DNA of 64,000 bases from Marinospirillum alkaliphilum DSM 21637 (GCF_900119735.1 NZ_FPJW01000007.1:124001-188000), one strand, 5' to 3'. Positions 4,373 through 57,855 are shown, counted from the stretch's first letter. Numbers and translations are program-made. The notes: generated by a model not told the origin, from the letters alone.

Positions 4373-5833
4373 TCACCGCCAATAAAGCTCTTCCAGAATC
4401 ACCGCCGGTACCGGGGCGTGCAACCAGCTACCCTGGAGATTTTTTTTGCGTATCGCCTGTTGAGGCTTGATGTGCAGAAACACCTGGGCCGCATCTTCGG
4501 CCAGCAGCTTCTGGGCCTGTTGCAACAACTGGTTGCGCTGCTGCTCATCCACAGCCTGCTCTATTTTCTGCCAAAGCTGGTTAAATGCCGGGTTCCGGTA
4601 ATTAAAGTAATAATCATCCCGGGCATAAATATCCATATCAAAAGGCTCAACATGGGCAATCACTGTCAGATCATAATCCCTTTGAAGAAATACCTGTTCC
4701 AGCCAGGTTGACCAGTCCATTCTGATCAATTCAATGTCTATCCCTACCTGCTCCAGGGCATCCGCCAGCAACAGACTGCTTTCTCTGGCATACAAGGGTG
4801 GTGGCACCATCATGCGCAGTTGCAAACCTTCGGCATAGCCCGCCTGCTGTAACAGGACACGGGCTTGTTGTCGATCATGAGGATACAGATCACTCAGGTC
4901 GACATAGGCAGGGTGCCGGGGTGAAAAGTGACTGCCAATTAACGGTGGACTGGTCTGCGGGTAAATGGATAACAGCGCCTGGCGATCCACGGCATGAGTC
5001 AAGGCACGTCTGACCCTCACATCTTGCAAAGCCGGATGTGCGTGATTTAACACCAGCAACACCTGCCCCTCACTCAGACCATCCTGCATCACATAGTCCG
5101 TCCGTTCCGATAACTGCACGTTGGCGGACAGCGCACTGACATTGGGATAAAGATCGATACGGCCTTCCAGCAATCCGGCTTCCAGTTCCAATCGATTGGA
5201 GGTGAAGGTGAAGAGTGCGTCATGAATACTCGGTAAAACGCCCCAGTAATTACGAAATACACTAACCCTTAATCCGACCTCATCCCAGGATACAAAGTGA
5301 TAAGGCCCAGTTCCTACCGGGTGCTGATGATTCTGTGCAGCGGTTTCAGGGTGTACCATCACGGCGGCTGACAGACCCAAACGAAAAGGCAGCAGGCCAT
5401 CCGGATGGTGCAAGTGCAGCCTCAGGCGTGAAGCATTGATACTTTCCACTTCACGAATACTGCCAAACAGGTGGCGCTGCGGGTTACCTGCGGCAGGGTC
5501 CAGCATACGCCGGATACTCCAGGCAGCCACTTCAGCATTAAAACTGCGCAGATCATGGAATACCACCCCTGGCTGCAGCTCAAAGGTCCAGCTCAGCCCA
5601 TCCTCAGCAACCTGCCAACGATGCGCCAGATTGGGTTGCACCTGCCCATCCCGGTCTATCCGGGTGAGTCCCTGAAAGATATTGTTGTAGGTGGCCTCAG
5701 CCAGGGTTGCAGCGGGGGTGCGGGTCGGGTCCAGGTGAGGTGGACGCAGATGCAGCTCGACTCGTAATGGCTCTGCCATCAATTCAACGGACAGCAACAA
5801 ACACCATAACAGCAATAAAACGCCCCTGTTCAT
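4373..5833 (-). CDS. Periplasmic solute-binding protein, SBP_bac_5 (oligopeptide/DppA) type, orphan
   Basis: The 486-residue product begins with a signal peptide (about residues 1-20, ending LMA-E) and continues as a class C extracellular solute-binding protein: LDPTRTPAATLAEATYNNI near the N terminus, then RVRRALTHAVDR and a long C-terminal lobe. The family binds oligopeptides, dipeptides, nickel or related ligands. No permease or ATPase gene is adjacent. Its ATG overlaps the stop of the diguanylate cyclase gene by four bases (ATGA), which implies translational coupling. That context suggests it may be a ligand sensor for the cyclase rather than a transport subunit; this is an inference. Confidence 0.85.
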   Translation of the reverse strand: MNRGVLLLLWCLLLSVELMAEPLRVELHLRPPHLDPTRTPAATLAEATYNNIFQGLTRIDRDGQVQPNLAHRWQVAEDGLSWTFELQPGVVFHDLRSFNAEVAAWSIRRMLDPAAGNPQRHLFGSIREVESINASRLRLHLHHPDGLLPFRLGLSAAVMVHPETAAQNHQHPVGTGPYHFVSWDEVGLRVSVFRNYWGVLPSIHDALFTFTSNRLELEAGLLEGRIDLYPNVSALSANVQLSERTDYVMQDGLSEGQVLLVLNHAHPALQDVRVRRALTHAVDRQALLSIYPQTSPPLIGSHFSPRHPAYVDLSDLYPHDRQQARVLLQQAGYAEGLQLRMMVPPPLYARESSLLLADALEQVGIDIELIRMDWSTWLEQVFLQRDYDLTVIAHVEPFDMDIYARDDYYFNYRNPAFNQLWQKIEQAVDEQQRNQLLQQAQKLLAEDAAQVFLHIKPQQAIRKKNLQGSWLHAPVPAVILEELYWR

Positions 5834-7209
5834 GCTTGCCCCTCCTGGCATTCAGCCATTGCTGCAACCACACGATTACGACCACTTGCTTTGGCCTGAT
5901 AAAGGGCCTGGTCAGCCCGCTTCATGCAACCACTCAGATCACCAACACCACAGGCGGCCACACCAAAACTGGCCGTGATGGTCAGCAGCTGGCCACCCAA
6001 TTCAAAAGGCAGCCGTTCAATTTGCTGACGCACCTGCTCCAGATGCCTGACAACACCATCCAGCGGTGTATCGGGAAACAACATCGCAAACTCTTCACCA
6101 CCATAACGGGCCAACAGCACCTGATCTGGCAAAGCTTCCTGAAGGCGGCTGGCAAAACCAATGATCACCTGATCACCGGCATCATGGCCAAAACGATCAT
6201 TCACCTGCTTGAAGTGGTCAATATCCACCATCACGGCACAGACCTGATGTTTACCAACATCCCTTTCCAGACGCTCCAGATCCCGCTCAAACTGATGGCG
6301 GTTCGACAGGCGTGTCAGGGCATCATGGGTGGCCATAAACTCCAGCTCACGGTTCATCGACAGGATGCGCGCTTCATGCAGGTTGATCTTGTCGACATAA
6401 CGCTGAATTGACTGGGCCATCCAGGTGATTTCATCACGCCCACCCACCGGAATGTCGGCGGGCAACAAACGATCCTGACTGAGGGCTTTTTGCAACGCCA
6501 CCACCCGGCGCACCACGGAGCGGTTGATATAAAAAACCGTGGTCAGCATCAGCAACAGCGCGATGACCGCCGCCACCAGCAAAAGGCCTTCGCGGGTGGC
6601 AATGGCACTGTTAACCTGCTGTACCGAGTCCTGTATTTCCGAGCGAATGGCACTGACATGAAAACCCACTGCCACACTCAACTCTGTAGCCAGTCGGCGG
6701 TTTTCCCGTAATAACTCACCAATTTCTGCTTCAATCAGCTGCAGTGACTGAAGCCGATCCGGATCTGAAGATTCACCATGAAACACATCAGCACGCAAAT
6801 TGATTCGCTGTGCAACCAGTTGGTCAACCTTGGTCAGATTATCAATCAGTTGATCACGAACCTGATAAATACGTGCAAAGGCTTCACCACCATCCAGATT
6901 TGATTCCAGCTCCGCCACCATCCGCCCGATCCACTCCTTGCGATCAGCAATTTCAAACATCGCACGACGGCGATTAAAATGATTTTCTGCCTGCAGCAAG
7001 AGCGCACTGCTACCCATCAGGCCTTCGGTCTGCTGCACCAGGCGAGTCGCAGTCAACAGGGTGTTGATCTGCTGTTGGGACAGGTGGGTGATGGTGTTGC
7101 GGTACTGGGAGAAAGAAAAGAGCGCCAGCAAAATGGCAGCCAGACTCACTGCTGTGGTCAACAGTGTCAGCAACAGGGTTCTACCAGTCAGGCCTGGGCT
7201 TTTCCTCAT
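5830..7209 (-). CDS. Membrane-bound diguanylate cyclase with periplasmic helical sensor
   Basis: The 459-residue protein has a membrane helix at about 10-33, a mostly helical periplasmic region (35-205), a second helix at 208-228, a HAMP-like linker to about 280 and a C-terminal GGDEF domain. The active-site loop is GGEEF at 370-374, so cyclic-di-GMP synthesis is expected. The RxxD inhibitory site that normally precedes it is replaced by P-D-Q-V, so product inhibition there is unlikely. The periplasmic part (LVQQTEGL, then RR and DR-W positions) recalls the sensor bundle of TorS-type receptors, which work with a binding protein. The downstream binding-protein gene overlaps it by four bases. 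Confidence 0.9.
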   Translation of the reverse strand: MRKSPGLTGRTLLLTLLTTAVSLAAILLALFSFSQYRNTITHLSQQQINTLLTATRLVQQTEGLMGSSALLLQAENHFNRRRAMFEIADRKEWIGRMVAELESNLDGGEAFARIYQVRDQLIDNLTKVDQLVAQRINLRADVFHGESSDPDRLQSLQLIEAEIGELLRENRRLATELSVAVGFHVSAIRSEIQDSVQQVNSAIATREGLLLVAAVIALLLMLTTVFYINRSVVRRVVALQKALSQDRLLPADIPVGGRDEITWMAQSIQRYVDKINLHEARILSMNRELEFMATHDALTRLSNRHQFERDLERLERDVGKHQVCAVMVDIDHFKQVNDRFGHDAGDQVIIGFASRLQEALPDQVLLARYGGEEFAMLFPDTPLDGVVRHLEQVRQQIERLPFELGGQLLTITASFGVAACGVGDLSGCMKRADQALYQAKASGRNRVVAAMAECQEGQA

Positions 7210-7425: not shown

Positions 7426-8424
7426 TCACTGCGGTGTGAAGGTACGCGCTCTCAGCACTTCAGGTTTCAGGATGGGTTTTTCACCCGTGTTGCGATGATC
7501 ACCCAGAAGGCGCCCCTGCTGTTCCGTGCCATAAAAGCCGTGTTTGTGAAAAGATTCCAGATAACGTGCACGTGTCGCTCTGACATCACCTTCATAACGT
7601 GGGTCCTGCGGTCTTTCATGACTGTTGATGTATACCGCAATATCCCAGGCATCCTGCACACTCATGGTATAAGGCTGCCCCAGCGGCATATTGTGGTGAA
7701 TGAATCCCGCCAGGGTGAAGTTGCGAATGATTCCGGCCCCCCAGTTATAAGACAGGTCACCCCAGACGGCCGGAAAATGAGTCTCACCCTTGACCCGCAT
7801 GCCACTGCCATCACTGCTGTGGCAAATGGCACAGTTATTTTCATAAAGTGCATGCCCCCGCTCATGGGAAGGCTCCTGCGACGGCTGGTCTATCGGATAA
7901 CCACGACCATAATAGTCACCCAACTGATAAATCGGCACCCCCTTGGCCAGCCACTGGTGATAAGCAGCCAGCGCCACCATGTCATCACTGCCGTACTCTG
8001 GCGGAATGCCATTCATGGAGTAGCTGAAACAACCGGCAATACGCTCTTCCAGATTATTGACATGGTCATTTTTGGGGCGGTAATTGGGTAGTACAACCGC
8101 TGCAGGCCATACCGGTGAAGCAAAAGGCATCCTTCCTTCACCCATGTGGCAGGAACTGCAGTTCATATCATTAAAAACGTTTTTGCCACGCAGTTGCTGA
8201 GTATTCATGAACAGGTCATGACCACGGCGAATCACCCGCTTCAACTCAGGGTGCATGCGAGCTGCTTCCAGATCATCCATGGTGGGTGGTGTATGCAGCA
8301 GCTGGCCTTCTCTGGGCTGCGGCGGGTTAACCGGGAAACGCAGTTGCTGCTCAGCCTGTACCGGCAGAATCACGCAGCTGGCCAGCATGCCGACCAGCAG
8401 CCATTGGAATCGATTGGTTTTCAT
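7426..8424 (-). CDS. tsdA: Dihaem thiosulfate dehydrogenase / tetrathionate reductase cytochrome TsdA
   Basis: TsdA interconverts thiosulfate and tetrathionate in the periplasm. The 332-residue product has a signal peptide ending near residue 24 (VQA-E), a first c-type haem site CSSCH at 89-93 and a second CAICH at 198-202. Cys132 in the GCFSYSMNG motif matches the unusual axial Cys ligand of haem 1 in characterised TsdA enzymes. Met residues for haem 2 are present near MPLGQPYTM. It lies 13 bases after the dihaem cytochrome gene tsdB and downstream of a TtrSR-like sensor pair, so reduction of tetrathionate in vivo is plausible. The direction of the reaction is not decided by sequence. Confidence 0.87.
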   Translation of the reverse strand: MKTNRFQWLLVGMLASCVILPVQAEQQLRFPVNPPQPREGQLLHTPPTMDDLEAARMHPELKRVIRRGHDLFMNTQQLRGKNVFNDMNCSSCHMGEGRMPFASPVWPAAVVLPNYRPKNDHVNNLEERIAGCFSYSMNGIPPEYGSDDMVALAAYHQWLAKGVPIYQLGDYYGRGYPIDQPSQEPSHERGHALYENNCAICHSSDGSGMRVKGETHFPAVWGDLSYNWGAGIIRNFTLAGFIHHNMPLGQPYTMSVQDAWDIAVYINSHERPQDPRYEGDVRATRARYLESFHKHGFYGTEQQGRLLGDHRNTGEKPILKPEVLRARTFTPQ

Positions 8425-8437
8425 GGCGCTTCTCCGT

Positions 8438-9076
8438 TTATTGGGCAGGCAAGGTGGATAACCAGGCAGCCACTGCCCGGATATCCTGCTCAGTCATGCG
8501 CTCGGCAATGGCCAGCATCAGGTGCTGCGGATCGTTGTCGCGCTTGCCCTGCTTCCAGTCCAGCAGTTGCCGTTCAATGTATCCGGCATGTTGACCGGCA
8601 ATCCCGGGGAAGTTGGAACCGGCACCCTGGCTGGCCGGGCCATGGCAACTGCCACAAGGAACGATGTAGCGCTCCCAGTCACCCTGTTCAACCAGTCGCT
8701 GTCCCAGTTTCAGCAAATCAGCTGCGGCATCCTTGCCACCCTGGCCGGGTGTAGCGGGCAGTTGACTGTAATAAACAGAGACATCCTTCAACTGCTGATC
8801 GGTGAGCATGGCAGCAAAAGGCATCATGCTGGCGTTGGTGCGACGACCTTCACGAAAGTCGACCAGTTGTCGATACATGTATCCGGCATCCATTGCCGCC
8901 AGACGCGGCCAGGATTCACCGCCGGGGATGTGCATACCACTGCCATCGGCCTGATGACAGGCAGCACAAACCGCTGCTGCAGTCCTGCCTCGTTCAGCAT
9001 CGCCTTCGATGCCGGCAAACAGTGGCATGCTGAGCAGCAGGCTCATCATCAATAAAGTTTTTCTTGGGGTTTTCAT
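8438..9076 (-). CDS. tsdB: Dihaem cytochrome c (c4-like), TsdB-type electron partner
   Basis: The 212-residue product has a signal peptide (about 1-22) and two c-type haem motifs, CAACH at 37-41 and CGSCH at 141-145, in a cytochrome c4-like tandem fold. In organisms with tsdBA, TsdB carries electrons to or from TsdA. I chose the ATG at 9076 because AAGGGA lies about 7 bases upstream; an earlier in-frame start at 9136 adds a basic, non-secretory extension. The gene is 93 bases downstream of the response regulator gene, and that gap contains a triple direct repeat. Confidence 0.82.
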   Translation of the reverse strand: MKTPRKTLLMMSLLLSMPLFAGIEGDAERGRTAAAVCAACHQADGSGMHIPGGESWPRLAAMDAGYMYRQLVDFREGRRTNASMMPFAAMLTDQQLKDVSVYYSQLPATPGQGGKDAAADLLKLGQRLVEQGDWERYIVPCGSCHGPASQGAGSNFPGIAGQHAGYIERQLLDWKQGKRDNDPQHLMLAIAERMTEQDIRAVAAWLSTLPAQ

Positions 9077-9133
9077 AGGCTGTCCCTTCTTCCTTTTTCT
9101 GCTGAATGCAGACAGGAGCAACCTTAATGTTTG

Positions 9134-9160
9134 CAAGGTATTCGCGGTATCAGCAGTATC
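9134..9160 (-). promoter_or_regulatory. Three tandem 9-bp repeats upstream of tsdB
   Basis: On the minus strand three consecutive 9-mers read GATACTGCT, GATACCGCG and AATACCTTG, sharing an [A/G]ATAC core at an exact 9-base period. They lie between the response-regulator gene and tsdB, 58-84 bases before the tsdB ATG. Their position suggests binding sites for the adjacent TtrR-like regulator. No convincing -35/-10 pair is seen, so this is inferred from spacing alone. Confidence 0.35.
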
Positions 9161-9169
9161 CTCACACCA

Positions 9170-9793
9170 CTAAAGGATTTCCCTACCCGTTCGCACCAGC
9201 AGATGGATCAGCTCAGGCACCGAGGTAACAGAAAGCTTTTTCATCAGGTTGTGGCGATGCACATCAACTGTTTTTGGGCTGATGCCCAGATGGTCAGCAA
9301 TCAGCTTGGCCGGGAGCCCCTGCACCAGGCACTCCATGACCTCCTGCTCTCTGGATGTGAGGGTTGCCAGCTGCTGTTTGCTGTGCTGTTGCTGATGCAA
9401 CTGCTTCAGTCGGGTTTGATGCAGCGCCACGGCTTGCTGAAGTGCATCAATCAGATGCTGGTCATTAAAGGGTTTTTCAAAAAAGTCACAGGCACCATCC
9501 TTCATGGCTTTCACCGCCATCCCCACATCAGCATGGCCACTCATCAGAATCACTGGTGGTGCTGCCGGATCCTGCTGCAGGGTACGCTGCAACTCCAGTC
9601 CACTCTGACCCGGCATGCGCACATCCAGCAAAACACATCCCGGCTGGCCACTTTGCCACTGAGCCAGAAAGTCCGCTCCATCACTGCACAGGCAGACGGT
9701 CAGACCCACAGTGCCCAGTAACCAGGCCAGGGACTCCCTGACCTGCTGATCATCATCCACAATCCAGACCTTTGCTGCAGTGGCATCAGTCAT
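9170..9793 (-). CDS. ttrR: LuxR/FixJ-family response regulator, TtrR-like
   Basis: The 207-residue protein has an N-terminal receiver domain with acidic residues in VDDD (12-15) and phospho-acceptor Asp57 in LLDVRMPG. A C-terminal LuxR helix-turn-helix (about 140-200) contains LTSREQEVMECL and GISPKTVDVHRHNLMKKL. It overlaps the end of the sensor kinase gene by 8 bases, so the two form a pair. I chose the ATG at 9793 because GGGGAG lies 7 bases upstream; an ATG at 9808 is poorly spaced. The likely targets are the tsdBA genes just downstream. Confidence 0.83.
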   Translation of the reverse strand: MTDATAAKVWIVDDDQQVRESLAWLLGTVGLTVCLCSDGADFLAQWQSGQPGCVLLDVRMPGQSGLELQRTLQQDPAAPPVILMSGHADVGMAVKAMKDGACDFFEKPFNDQHLIDALQQAVALHQTRLKQLHQQQHSKQQLATLTSREQEVMECLVQGLPAKLIADHLGISPKTVDVHRHNLMKKLSVTSVPELIHLLVRTGREIL

Positions 9794-55254: not shown

Positions 55255-55260
55255 ATTATA
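55255..55260 (-). promoter_or_regulatory. -10 element of the dapB promoter
   Basis: A perfect TATAAT on the minus strand lies 40 bases before the dapB ATG. The hexamer at the -35 distance (GGGTCG) is poor, so an activator may help. The CRP site at 55314-55335 is centred about 76 bases upstream of the likely start point, not a standard distance for this promoter. Confidence 0.5.
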
Positions 55261-55313: not shown

Positions 55314-55335
55314 AAATGTGACCCAGTTCACATTT
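55314..55335 (+). promoter_or_regulatory. Near-consensus CRP (Vfr) binding site
   Basis: AAATGTGA (55314-55321) and TTCACATTT (55327-55335) form a 22-base site with perfect TGTGA-N6-TCACA half-sites and matching outer AAA/TTT. It is centred at 55324.5, about 41 bases before the likely transcription start of the HD-GYP gene, the class II position where CRP contacts polymerase at -41.5. The protein that binds it is not encoded in the window. Confidence 0.85.
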
Positions 55336-55349
55336 ATTCGCCGGTGTTT

Positions 55350-55358
55350 TGCTAAGAT
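55350..55358 (+). promoter_or_regulatory. Extended -10 promoter of the HD-GYP/phosphodiesterase operon
   Basis: TG at 55350-55351, one base, then TAAGAT at 55353-55358 make an extended -10 element. No -35 hexamer is visible; the CRP site occupies that region, as expected of a class II activated promoter. The predicted start near 55365 leaves a leader of about 29 bases and an AGGGGAAG ribosome site. Confidence 0.65.
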
Positions 55359-55393
55359 GAGTTACTTTTTTACATTTCAGCAGGGGAAGTTGA

Positions 55394-57082
55394 ATGTCAT
55401 CCGAAGCCAGCCCTTCCAACAACACCGGCAACACCAACCCCAGCTATGAGCGCATCCGGCGACTGAATGCTATCGGTATCGCCCTGTCAGCACAAAGCGA
55501 CCAGACCCAACTACTGGAAATGATCCTGTCCAGTGCCCGTGAACTGACCCGCTCCGATGCCGGTACCCTCTACATGGTTGAACCGGATGGTGAATCACTG
55601 CGTTTTGTGATGGTGCAAAACGATAAACTCAACATCCATTTAGGTGGCAGCGGTGCCCCGGTAGGCAATAACTTCCCATTAATCCCCCTGCACCTGCCGG
55701 ATGGCACACCCAACGAACGCATGATTGCGGCCTGGGCGGTACTGAACAAAAAAACCGCCAATATTGCTGACGCCTACCACGAGCAGGGCTTTGACTTTTC
55801 CGGCACCCGCGCTTTTGATGCCAAAACCGGTTATCACTCCAAGTCCTTTTTAACCGTACCGCTGCGCAATCATGAAGGCGAAGTCATTGCCGCCCTTCAG
55901 CTACTGAACAAACTGAATAATAGCGGTGAGCCGGTTCCCTTTGATGAAAGTGATCAGGATATTGCCGAATCTCTCGCCTCCCAGGCGGCCATTGCCCTAA
56001 CCAACCGCCGACTGATTGATGAGCTGCGCACTCTGTTCGACAGCTTCACCCAGGTGATCGCAAGCGCAATCGACTCCAAGTCTGCCCACACCGGCGCCCA
56101 CTGTCGTCGCGTACCAGACGCCACCCTGATGCTGGCTGAAGCTGCCAGCGGCACAAATTTTCCGGGCCTGGAAGGTTTCAGCATGTCCGAAGAGGACATG
56201 TATGAATTAAAAACCGCTGCCTGGTTGCACGATTGCGGCAAGGTGGTCACCCCACACCATGTGATGGAAAAGTCGACCAAGCTGGAAACCATTGTGGACC
56301 GCATTGACTGGGTCACCGACCGTTTTGAGATCCTGCTGCGCGACCTAGAAATTGAGCGCCTGAAAGAAGAGCTGGCGGCGGCTCGTGCAGGAACCGAGCT
56401 GAACGCTGAACGCCTGGCTTTTTATGAACAGTTGCAACAACAGCTAGCCGACGACCTGTCGTTCCTGCAGAACGCCAACACCGGTGGTGAGTTCATGGCT
56501 GATGAGCATATTGCACGGGTAGAGGCACTGGGGCAACAGGGCTGGCTTGACCTGAAGGGTGAGCGGCACCGCTTGCTGAATGATGACGAAGTGATGAACC
56601 TGTCGATCCGGCGTGGCACCCTCAATCAGGAAGAAAGAAAAATCATGGAAGGCCACATGGTTCATACCTTGGCCATGCTGGAACAGCTACCCTTTCCACG
56701 CCACCTGAAGCGAGTTCCGGAATACGCTGGCGGCCACCATGAGCGCATGGACGGCAAGGGTTATCCACGCGGTCTGACCCGTGAGCAGATGTCCATTCCA
56801 GCTCGCATCATGGGTATCGCTGACGTGTTTGAAGCCCTGACCGCCCACGAGCGCCCCTACAAAAAGCCCATGCCTCTGTCTCAGGCACTCACCATCATGG
56901 GGCGCATGGTCGAAGACAACCACCTGGACCCGGATCTTTACGCGTTATTTGTTTACAAGAAAGTTTATCTTGATTACGCTAAAAAACATCTTAAGCCCGA
57001 ACAAATGGACGAGGTCGATACCAGCGCCTTGCCGGGACTGAAACTGGCCTCAATCACTCAGACACAGGCAGGGGAGCCATAA
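55394..57082 (+). CDS. GAF and HD-GYP domain phosphohydrolase (c-di-GMP phosphodiesterase candidate)
   Basis: The 562-residue cytoplasmic protein has a GAF domain (about 25-205) and an HD-GYP-type domain. The HD dyad is in AAWLHDCGKV (279-280) and the GYP motif in HHERMDGKGYPRG (448-460). Unlike standard HD-GYP domains, about 110 mostly helical residues (291-405) are inserted between them. HD-GYP domains hydrolyse cyclic-di-GMP; the residues for metal binding appear present, so activity is likely but the insertion may regulate it. The downstream cyclic-nucleotide phosphodiesterase gene starts 3 bases after the stop. Expression is probably CRP-dependent. Confidence 0.88.
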   Translation: MSSEASPSNNTGNTNPSYERIRRLNAIGIALSAQSDQTQLLEMILSSARELTRSDAGTLYMVEPDGESLRFVMVQNDKLNIHLGGSGAPVGNNFPLIPLHLPDGTPNERMIAAWAVLNKKTANIADAYHEQGFDFSGTRAFDAKTGYHSKSFLTVPLRNHEGEVIAALQLLNKLNNSGEPVPFDESDQDIAESLASQAAIALTNRRLIDELRTLFDSFTQVIASAIDSKSAHTGAHCRRVPDATLMLAEAASGTNFPGLEGFSMSEEDMYELKTAAWLHDCGKVVTPHHVMEKSTKLETIVDRIDWVTDRFEILLRDLEIERLKEELAAARAGTELNAERLAFYEQLQQQLADDLSFLQNANTGGEFMADEHIARVEALGQQGWLDLKGERHRLLNDDEVMNLSIRRGTLNQEERKIMEGHMVHTLAMLEQLPFPRHLKRVPEYAGGHHERMDGKGYPRGLTREQMSIPARIMGIADVFEALTAHERPYKKPMPLSQALTIMGRMVEDNHLDPDLYALFVYKKVYLDYAKKHLKPEQMDEVDTSALPGLKLASITQTQAGEP

Positions 57083-57084
57083 GC

Positions 57085-57855
57085 GTGAAGGTAGAAATTC
57101 TGGGTTGCAGCGGCGGCATGGGACTGGGACAGCACACCACCTGCTACCGGATCAACGAACACACCCTGATGGATGCTGGCAGCGGGCTGGGCAACCTGCC
57201 TCAGGATGAGCTGAAAAAAATTCGGCACATCCTGATCACCCATTCCCATCTGGACCACATCTGCTTTCTACCTCTGCTGATTGATAATTTATTCGAGTTT
57301 CTCAAGCAACCCATTCATGTATATGCACTGCCGGAAGTGCTCGAGATCCTCAAACAACACATCTTTAACTGGAAGATCTGGCCGGATTTTGCCACCCTGC
57401 CCAATCAGGATCACCCGGTGGTTCGCTTCCATACCGTACAAGCCTGGCAACCCGTGGTAGTTGGCGACCTGACATTTACCGCCTTCCCTGTTGAACACAT
57501 CGTGCCCACCTGCGGTTACCACGTGGTCAGTGAAACCGGACATACCCTGGCCTTCACTGGTGACACCACCTACGGCACGGCGGTGATGCAAGAGCTCAAC
57601 AAGCTGGGTCAACTGGATGTACTGATGACCGAGTGCGCCTTTCCTGACCGCCTGCTGGAACTGGCCCATGTCTCCAAACACCTGACCCCCAAACTGGTCA
57701 AAGACTTTGTAGACGCCATGGCCTACAGACCCAGACAGGTATGGCTATCTCACCTAAAGCCTAGCCAGACCCATGAAATCCGGGCGGAGCTGGAAAAGCT
57801 GGACCTGAGTACAAAGCTGGTGCTGCTACAAACCGGGCAGGTGTTTCAGCTTTAA
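57085..57855 (+). CDS. Metallo-beta-lactamase-fold 3',5'-cyclic-nucleotide phosphodiesterase
   Basis: The 256-residue protein has the MBL-fold zinc motif THSHLDH at about residues 52-58, followed by FNWKIWPDF, a GDTTYG loop with the bridging Asp and a final HLKPSQTHEI with a His. This layout is that of bacterial class II cAMP phosphodiesterases. It has no signal peptide, so it should act in the cytoplasm. The GTG at 57085 follows a GGGGAG. If it hydrolyses cAMP, the CRP site upstream would form a negative feedback loop. Substrate identity is inferred from the family. Confidence 0.75.
   Translation: MKVEILGCSGGMGLGQHTTCYRINEHTLMDAGSGLGNLPQDELKKIRHILITHSHLDHICFLPLLIDNLFEFLKQPIHVYALPEVLEILKQHIFNWKIWPDFATLPNQDHPVVRFHTVQAWQPVVVGDLTFTAFPVEHIVPTCGYHVVSETGHTLAFTGDTTYGTAVMQELNKLGQLDVLMTECAFPDRLLELAHVSKHLTPKLVKDFVDAMAYRPRQVWLSHLKPSQTHEIRAELEKLDLSTKLVLLQTGQVFQL

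Follow-up and report, generated by a model that had tools for sequence, protein, structure and literature searches.

A pair of adjoining Marinospirillum genes, predicted to encode a c-di-GMP phosphodiesterase and a cAMP phosphodiesterase, appears to be under the control of CRP, a conclusion that is well supported by the conservation of its promoter. The pair lies in the window analysed here, a stretch of 64,000 nucleotides of Marinospirillum alkaliphilum DSM 21637 (Table 1). In the model that we propose, and that we consider fairly likely as a whole, cAMP-CRP activates the operon, its MBL-fold enzyme destroys cAMP, and its GAF-gated HD-GYP protein lowers c-di-GMP. The initial annotation had already put forward CRP control of a bicistronic pair; this proposal gains from the conservation of site and pair within the genus, from the CRP equivalog that is encoded, and from the presence of cyclases. 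The initial annotation was also right about the order of the genes, GAF/HD-GYP and then MBL, even if stop and start are separated by two bases and not by three.

Table 1. Features of the operon and of its promoter region, in positions of the window.
Feature	Position	Strand	Basis or remark
Probable -10 (TATAAT) of divergent dapB	55255..55260	-	Gap to CRP site varies between 33 and 66 bp
CRP/Vfr-type site TGTGACCCAGTTCACA	55317..55332	+	Sequence; kept in 6/8 Marinospirillum genomes
Extended -10 TGCTAAGAT	55350..55358	+	17 bp downstream of CRP site
Shine-Dalgarno AGGGGAAG of HD-GYP gene	55382..55389	+	Sequence
GAF/HD-GYP phosphodiesterase gene (predicted), 562 aa	55394..57082	+	GAF + HD_5/HD domains
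GAF domain, aa 39-202	55508..55999	+	Closest to cyclic-nucleotide-binding GAFs (CyaB2, PDE5A, Lcd1, PDE10A)
HD-GYP catalytic region, aa 236-515	56099..56938	+	Motifs; PmGH ligand list (PMC4159591)
Insert, mostly helical, ~108 aa, aa 297-404, inside HD-GYP domain	56282..56605	+	Characteristic of subfamily
Shine-Dalgarno AGGGGAG of MBL gene	57070-57076	+	Sequence
MBL-fold class II cyclic-nucleotide phosphodiesterase gene (predicted), 256 aa, GTG start	57085..57855	+	Lactamase_B_2 + PDEase_II
Metal motif H53-S-H-L-D-H58 (HXHLDH, class II signature)	57241..57258	+	Signature from PMC9293780
FNWKIWPD motif, common to yeast PDE1 (FNDLIWPD)	57364..57387	+	Alignment

The site in front of the pair is the sole perfect match to TGTGA-N6-TCACA in the window, for which a first-order Markov model gives a chance expectation of 0.12 per 64 kb. 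Its right half-site, AGTTCACAT, agrees with the Vfr consensus. The position of the extended -10 predicts a transcription start at ~55365-55366, and the centre of the site (55324.5) lies 40.5-41.5 bp upstream of it. This is the geometry of a class II CRP position, centred near -41.5 and overlapping the -35 region, and the claim of a CRP site at class II distance from an extended -10 is confirmed. One site alone proves little, because perfect sites are not above expectation genome-wide (3 seen versus ~6 expected at the composition of the window); we therefore dropped the CRP regulon as a whole as a source of evidence. The same lack of enrichment, together with an N6 that is partly conserved as well (TGTGAACnnGTTCACA), favours the alternative that the palindrome is neutral or bound by another factor, the operon being controlled otherwise.

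Comparison within the genus argues against that alternative. The HD-GYP/MBL pair, which had been expected to recur in close relatives, is present in all eight Marinospirillum genomes, with a broken HD-GYP gene in G007. G004 and G001 carry a perfect site, G005 and G006 one with a single mismatch, and G002 a weak one with two. In six of the eight genomes the site is separated from the -10 by exactly 17 bp. Across six species its arms are 80-100% identical to those of the site in the window, and TGnTAnnAT or a near-match sits at the identical distance from it (67-100% identity of the -10). The flanks are only 26-40% identical between lineages, with the exception of the close pair G005/G006 (74%). 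A spacing that stays fixed amid flanks mostly at random identity marks a genuine footprint. Since the gap to the HD-GYP -10 is constant and that to the conserved -10 of the divergent dapB varies (63, 33, 40, 54, 54, and 66 bp in the six species), the site is tied to the HD-GYP promoter. The lack of a conserved spacing to the dapB -10 also led us to reject co-control of dapB by the site.

Conservation of the site before the pair, a check that the initial annotation had suggested, thus holds for six of the eight Marinospirillum genomes; the site is degraded in the two others and absent before the pair in the relatives compared outside the genus. The most divergent congener, G003, has a poor site and lacks the -10. 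G007 has lost the site, and its HD-GYP gene carries a frameshift and a large deletion (locus L027, contig C11, oriented positions 5022-5970; roughly aa 125-346 deleted, MBL intact), a break that could be an assembly error. With up to two mismatches allowed, no site plausibly placed for a promoter was found before the pair in the relatives from Nitrincola, Idiomarinaceae, Oceanospirillum, and Halomonas. From these comparisons, the CRP site of the pair appears to be limited to Marinospirillum, and the pair to predate it.

The protein expected to bind the site is encoded as well. Genome G000 has one CRP equivalog, L163 (NF008732, 312 bits for a cut-off of 266), and it is the only one among the Crp/Fnr-like proteins found to carry a CRP-type recognition helix (CSREMSGRVL); the helices of the FNR and DNR types differ. 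Set beside the fixed spacing, this makes a neutral palindrome or one bound by a non-CRP factor very improbable in our view. On the side of cAMP synthesis, class I adenylate cyclases are absent from all 24 genomes of the family that were searched, and G000 encodes four class III adenylate cyclases. Their purine-specifying positions are occupied by Lys/Thr or Lys/Asp. Among 24 genera of the family, three have both the MBL gene and a class III cyclase, three have the cyclase only, 18 have neither, and none has MBL only. MBL is thus confined to genera with a class III cyclase (Fisher p = 0.01, a guide only because genera are not fully independent). The idea of a class III CpdA replacing or complementing MBL was dropped, since family members with and without cyclase alike have only CpdA-like matches below cut-off.

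A few other sites deserve mention. Two more perfect CRP-type sites of G004 (contig C4; L172:1001-1016 and L171:1001-1016) lie upstream of genes, which encode, respectively, an SH3 + M48 peptidase and a TPR protein. In other lineages, relatives or look-alikes of these genes directly follow the HD-MBL(-AC) genes, which hints at a common regulon; an orthologue search in the genus gave too few clear orthologues of them to judge conservation. A CRP site upstream of G004's small class III cyclase was discarded, as it is inside the preceding ORF and unconserved. In Methylovorus sp. MM2, a perfect site (TGTGAGCTACTTCACA, L080:3635-3650) occurs 115 bp upstream of adenylate cyclase-MBL genes, where it is a possible case of independent CRP control of the AC-MBL module.

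The HD-GYP protein retains the HHExxDGxGYP motif intact. H236, H279-D280, H421, H448-H449, D477, and GYP are all present. The seven metal ligands common to both HD-GYP subgroups, as listed for PmGH (PMC4159591), correspond to H236, H279, D280, H421, H448, H449, and D477, and are invariant in the alignment of homologues. The substrate Arg/Lys (R487, K490) are kept too. The eighth ligand, a carboxylate (E185 of PmGH; E/D-T-G subgroup), is replaced, across the alignment mostly by H, Y, or Q followed by T, which places the protein in the other subgroup and not outside the family. Its helical insert is kept across the whole subfamily and in a fusion protein described below. By default for an intact HD-GYP, we expect the first gene product to lower c-di-GMP.

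Another substrate is possible, namely 3'3'-cGAMP. According to this alternative, the protein hydrolyses 3'3'-cGAMP or serves mainly as a cNMP-binding adaptor, and the operon does not lower c-di-GMP. The group without E185 includes V-cGAP3, annotated as specific for 3'3'-cGAMP, which the SP(Y/H/Q)TG motif of the aligned sequences resembles, and an insert of 108 aa within the catalytic domain is unusual. The closest solved homologue is nevertheless the c-di-GMP phosphodiesterase PmGH, both by sequence (V-cGAP3 comes next) and by fold, and with the seven shared ligands, GYP, and the substrate Arg/Lys all retained we regard this alternative as unlikely. A c-di-GMP phosphodiesterase thus stays our preferred reading of the first gene. 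The best matches of its GAF domain are CyaB2, PDE5A, PDE10A, and the cAMP-bound GAF of Lcd1, and it probably senses cAMP (or cGMP). Of the NKFDE-like motif, NK..F..D is kept here; the Lys is lost in many betaproteobacteria, and PmGH shares the signature. We know of no cNMP ligand for the GAF of PmGH.

The di-metal ligands of the MBL protein (H53, H55, D57, H58, H138, D160, and H223) are all invariant in 31 homologues. It matches the Pfam profile PDEase_II (PF02112) with 42.5 bits, versus a gathering threshold of 23.7, over aa 44-108 only, and all of the 31 homologues match it at E <= 0.001. When the profile of the family was searched against the PDB, the best single stretch was with yeast PDE1 (56 bits, aa 44-225), and the match to RNase Z required two weaker stretches. 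The protein has in common with PDE1 the HLDH motif, the h-FN--iWPD and EC-P-HL-P blocks, and the terminal TH-K. By fold, the structure model (pLDDT 96) matches YhfI, PDE1, and tRNase Z, as well as Apyc1, a nuclease of cyclic nucleotides. That this is a compact bacterial 3',5'-cyclic-nucleotide phosphodiesterase of the class II type is a prediction well supported by its motifs, by the profile and fold matches, and by the gene neighbourhood.

Homology does not settle the substrate, because the motifs of the MBL fold overlap with those of tRNase Z and YhfI; that it is cAMP is what we infer. The NCBIfam profile 'cyclic nucleotide-degrading phosphodiesterase' scores far below its cut-off (45 versus 400 bits). 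The enzyme might instead cleave another phosphodiester, such as tRNA 3' ends, 2',3'-cyclic nucleotides, or linear dinucleotides like pGpG, in an operon still controlled by CRP, and there would then be no feedback on cAMP. Foldseek and profile searches match RNase Z and ELAC1 as well, NCBIfam gives matches to RNase Z, though only below cut-off, and a dinucleotide hydrolase would be plausible after an HD-GYP whose product is pGpG. The NCBIfam RNase Z equivalogs are, however, far below cut-off (57 versus 252 and 55 versus 293 bits), the class II motifs HXHLDH and FN..IWPD are retained, and the repeated genomic linkage is with adenylate cyclases, not with ribonucleases. These observations make such a substrate quite unlikely, and we retain cAMP.

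That linkage emerged when 84,980 species genomes were scanned, the MBL alignment serving as query and the best 80 loci being kept. They show the family to be spread across beta- and gammaproteobacteria. Outside the genus, 78 loci were compared: an HD-GYP gene of this subfamily is close by in 26, a CHASE2 adenylate cyclase gene in 24, and both are in 18. The gene order varies: HD-MBL in Nitrincola, Oceanospirillum, and Vreelandella; HD-MBL-cyclase in G010, G033, Idiomarina, and Aliidiomarina; cyclase-HD-MBL in Pseudidiomarina; and a cyclase convergent to MBL in G004 and G001. HD, MBL, and AC are all on one strand in L029, L030, L060, and L073. One 797-aa ORF (L194:5834-8227, G248:C12) fuses MBL, GAF, and HD-GYP, and is followed after 12 bp by a DUF3095 gene (8240-9400); such a natural fusion suggests that the two phosphodiesterases belong together. 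The genes also co-occur class-wide: in 228 other genomes, MBL is found in 24 of 36 with HD-GYP versus 56 of 192 (p = 4e-5). We conclude from these neighbourhoods that the pair is part of a wider module linked to adenylate cyclases, a point absent from the initial annotation, which also did not note the fusion or the resemblance of the GAF to those that bind cyclic nucleotides.

Two further contexts were observed. In betaproteobacteria the order is CHASE2-kinase, PP2C, FHA, CHASE2-cyclase, MBL, cNMP-binding-rhodanese, GAF-T2SSE ATPase, and HD-GYP. This gene set forms a large conserved signalling cluster (L134, L103, L111, L128, L066, and other loci), in which the kinase is a CHASE2-Ser/Thr kinase, the ATPase is GAF-MshEN-T2SSE (PilB-like), and a pilin-like gene is often nearby; we found no description of the cluster in the literature. 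In many gammaproteobacteria MBL is alone and adjoins a ypjD-like gene and ffh (gene names assigned by eye), which indicates that it also works without HD-GYP. At L061, L063, L087, L101, and similar gammaproteobacterial loci, its neighbours are ypjD-like, corC-like, and ffh-rimM-trmD genes, and neither HD-GYP nor cyclase is there.

Together, these elements suggest the following sequence of events. When cAMP rises, CRP would act at the class II, extended -10 promoter and both phosphodiesterases would be made. The HD-GYP protein would cause c-di-GMP to fall, and the MBL enzyme would hydrolyse cAMP, a negative feedback that would shut the operon off. The net outcome would be a self-limited dip in c-di-GMP. 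In this scheme we infer the binding of CRP at the site, the direction of its effect on transcription, the GAF ligand, and the pulse behaviour. Given that the GAF probably senses cAMP (or cGMP), the activity of HD-GYP would be restricted to periods of high cAMP. It is conceivable, if somewhat doubtful, that cAMP acts three times, on the operon via CRP, on HD-GYP via the GAF, and as the molecule destroyed by MBL. The operon would then work as a self-timed converter, with a pulse of cAMP as its input and a dip in c-di-GMP as its output. Links between these two second messengers are usually indirect. Here, one conserved gene neighbourhood seems to bring together the production, sensing, and breakdown of cAMP with the breakdown of c-di-GMP. 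The pair offers small, testable enzymes with which to study how, in bacteria, one second messenger is translated into a change of another, as well as a bacterial branch of class II phosphodiesterases whose genomic context is clear.

Some of these features are known from other enzymes. PmGH of Persephonella marina (4mcw; PMC4159591) has the same domain order and fold and shares seven of eight metal ligands, but the Marinospirillum HD-GYP differs by the replaced E185 carboxylate and the extra ~108-aa helical insert. Atypical class II phosphodiesterases have been proposed to include YhfI, which is grouped with Rv1339 and the CpdA of C. glutamicum (PMC9293780). The Marinospirillum MBL protein shares the MBL fold and HXHLDH with these and with yeast PDE1 (4ojv); it also has FN..IWPD in common with PDE1, but is ~110 residues shorter.

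The regulation has parallels too. In Pseudomonas aeruginosa, the CRP homologue Vfr activates cpdA at high cAMP (Fuchs et al. 2010, as cited in PMC3535393). As in our model, high cAMP leads a CRP homologue to raise the expression of a cAMP phosphodiesterase, which is a negative feedback, but CpdA is a class III metallophosphoesterase and the Marinospirillum enzyme is predicted to be an MBL-fold class II one. To our knowledge, cpdA of P. aeruginosa is not co-transcribed with an HD-GYP gene. In Shewanella putrefaciens, cAMP-CRP promotes transcription of lrbR, likewise a c-di-GMP phosphodiesterase gene. LrbR, however, is an EAL protein, CRP helps the regulator LrbA with no CRP site found, and the available part of the report mentions no cAMP phosphodiesterase partner (PMC12415220). 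Tlr0485 of Thermosynechococcus, with the same GAF + HD-GYP layout, is a c-di-GMP phosphodiesterase activated by cAMP (Enomoto et al. 2020, reviewed in PMC8846402), and Bd1971 of Bdellovibrio is directly switched on by cAMP, but is an EAL phosphodiesterase with a CRP-type sensor (PMC6717892). For neither do the available parts of these sources describe a CRP-controlled operon with a cAMP phosphodiesterase. In the open papers we found neither the joint conserved module, nor the fusion, nor a class II-type enzyme in such a module. Each element therefore has a precedent (Vfr-CpdA, CRP-LrbR, Tlr0485, Bd1971), and it is their conserved combination that appears to be new.
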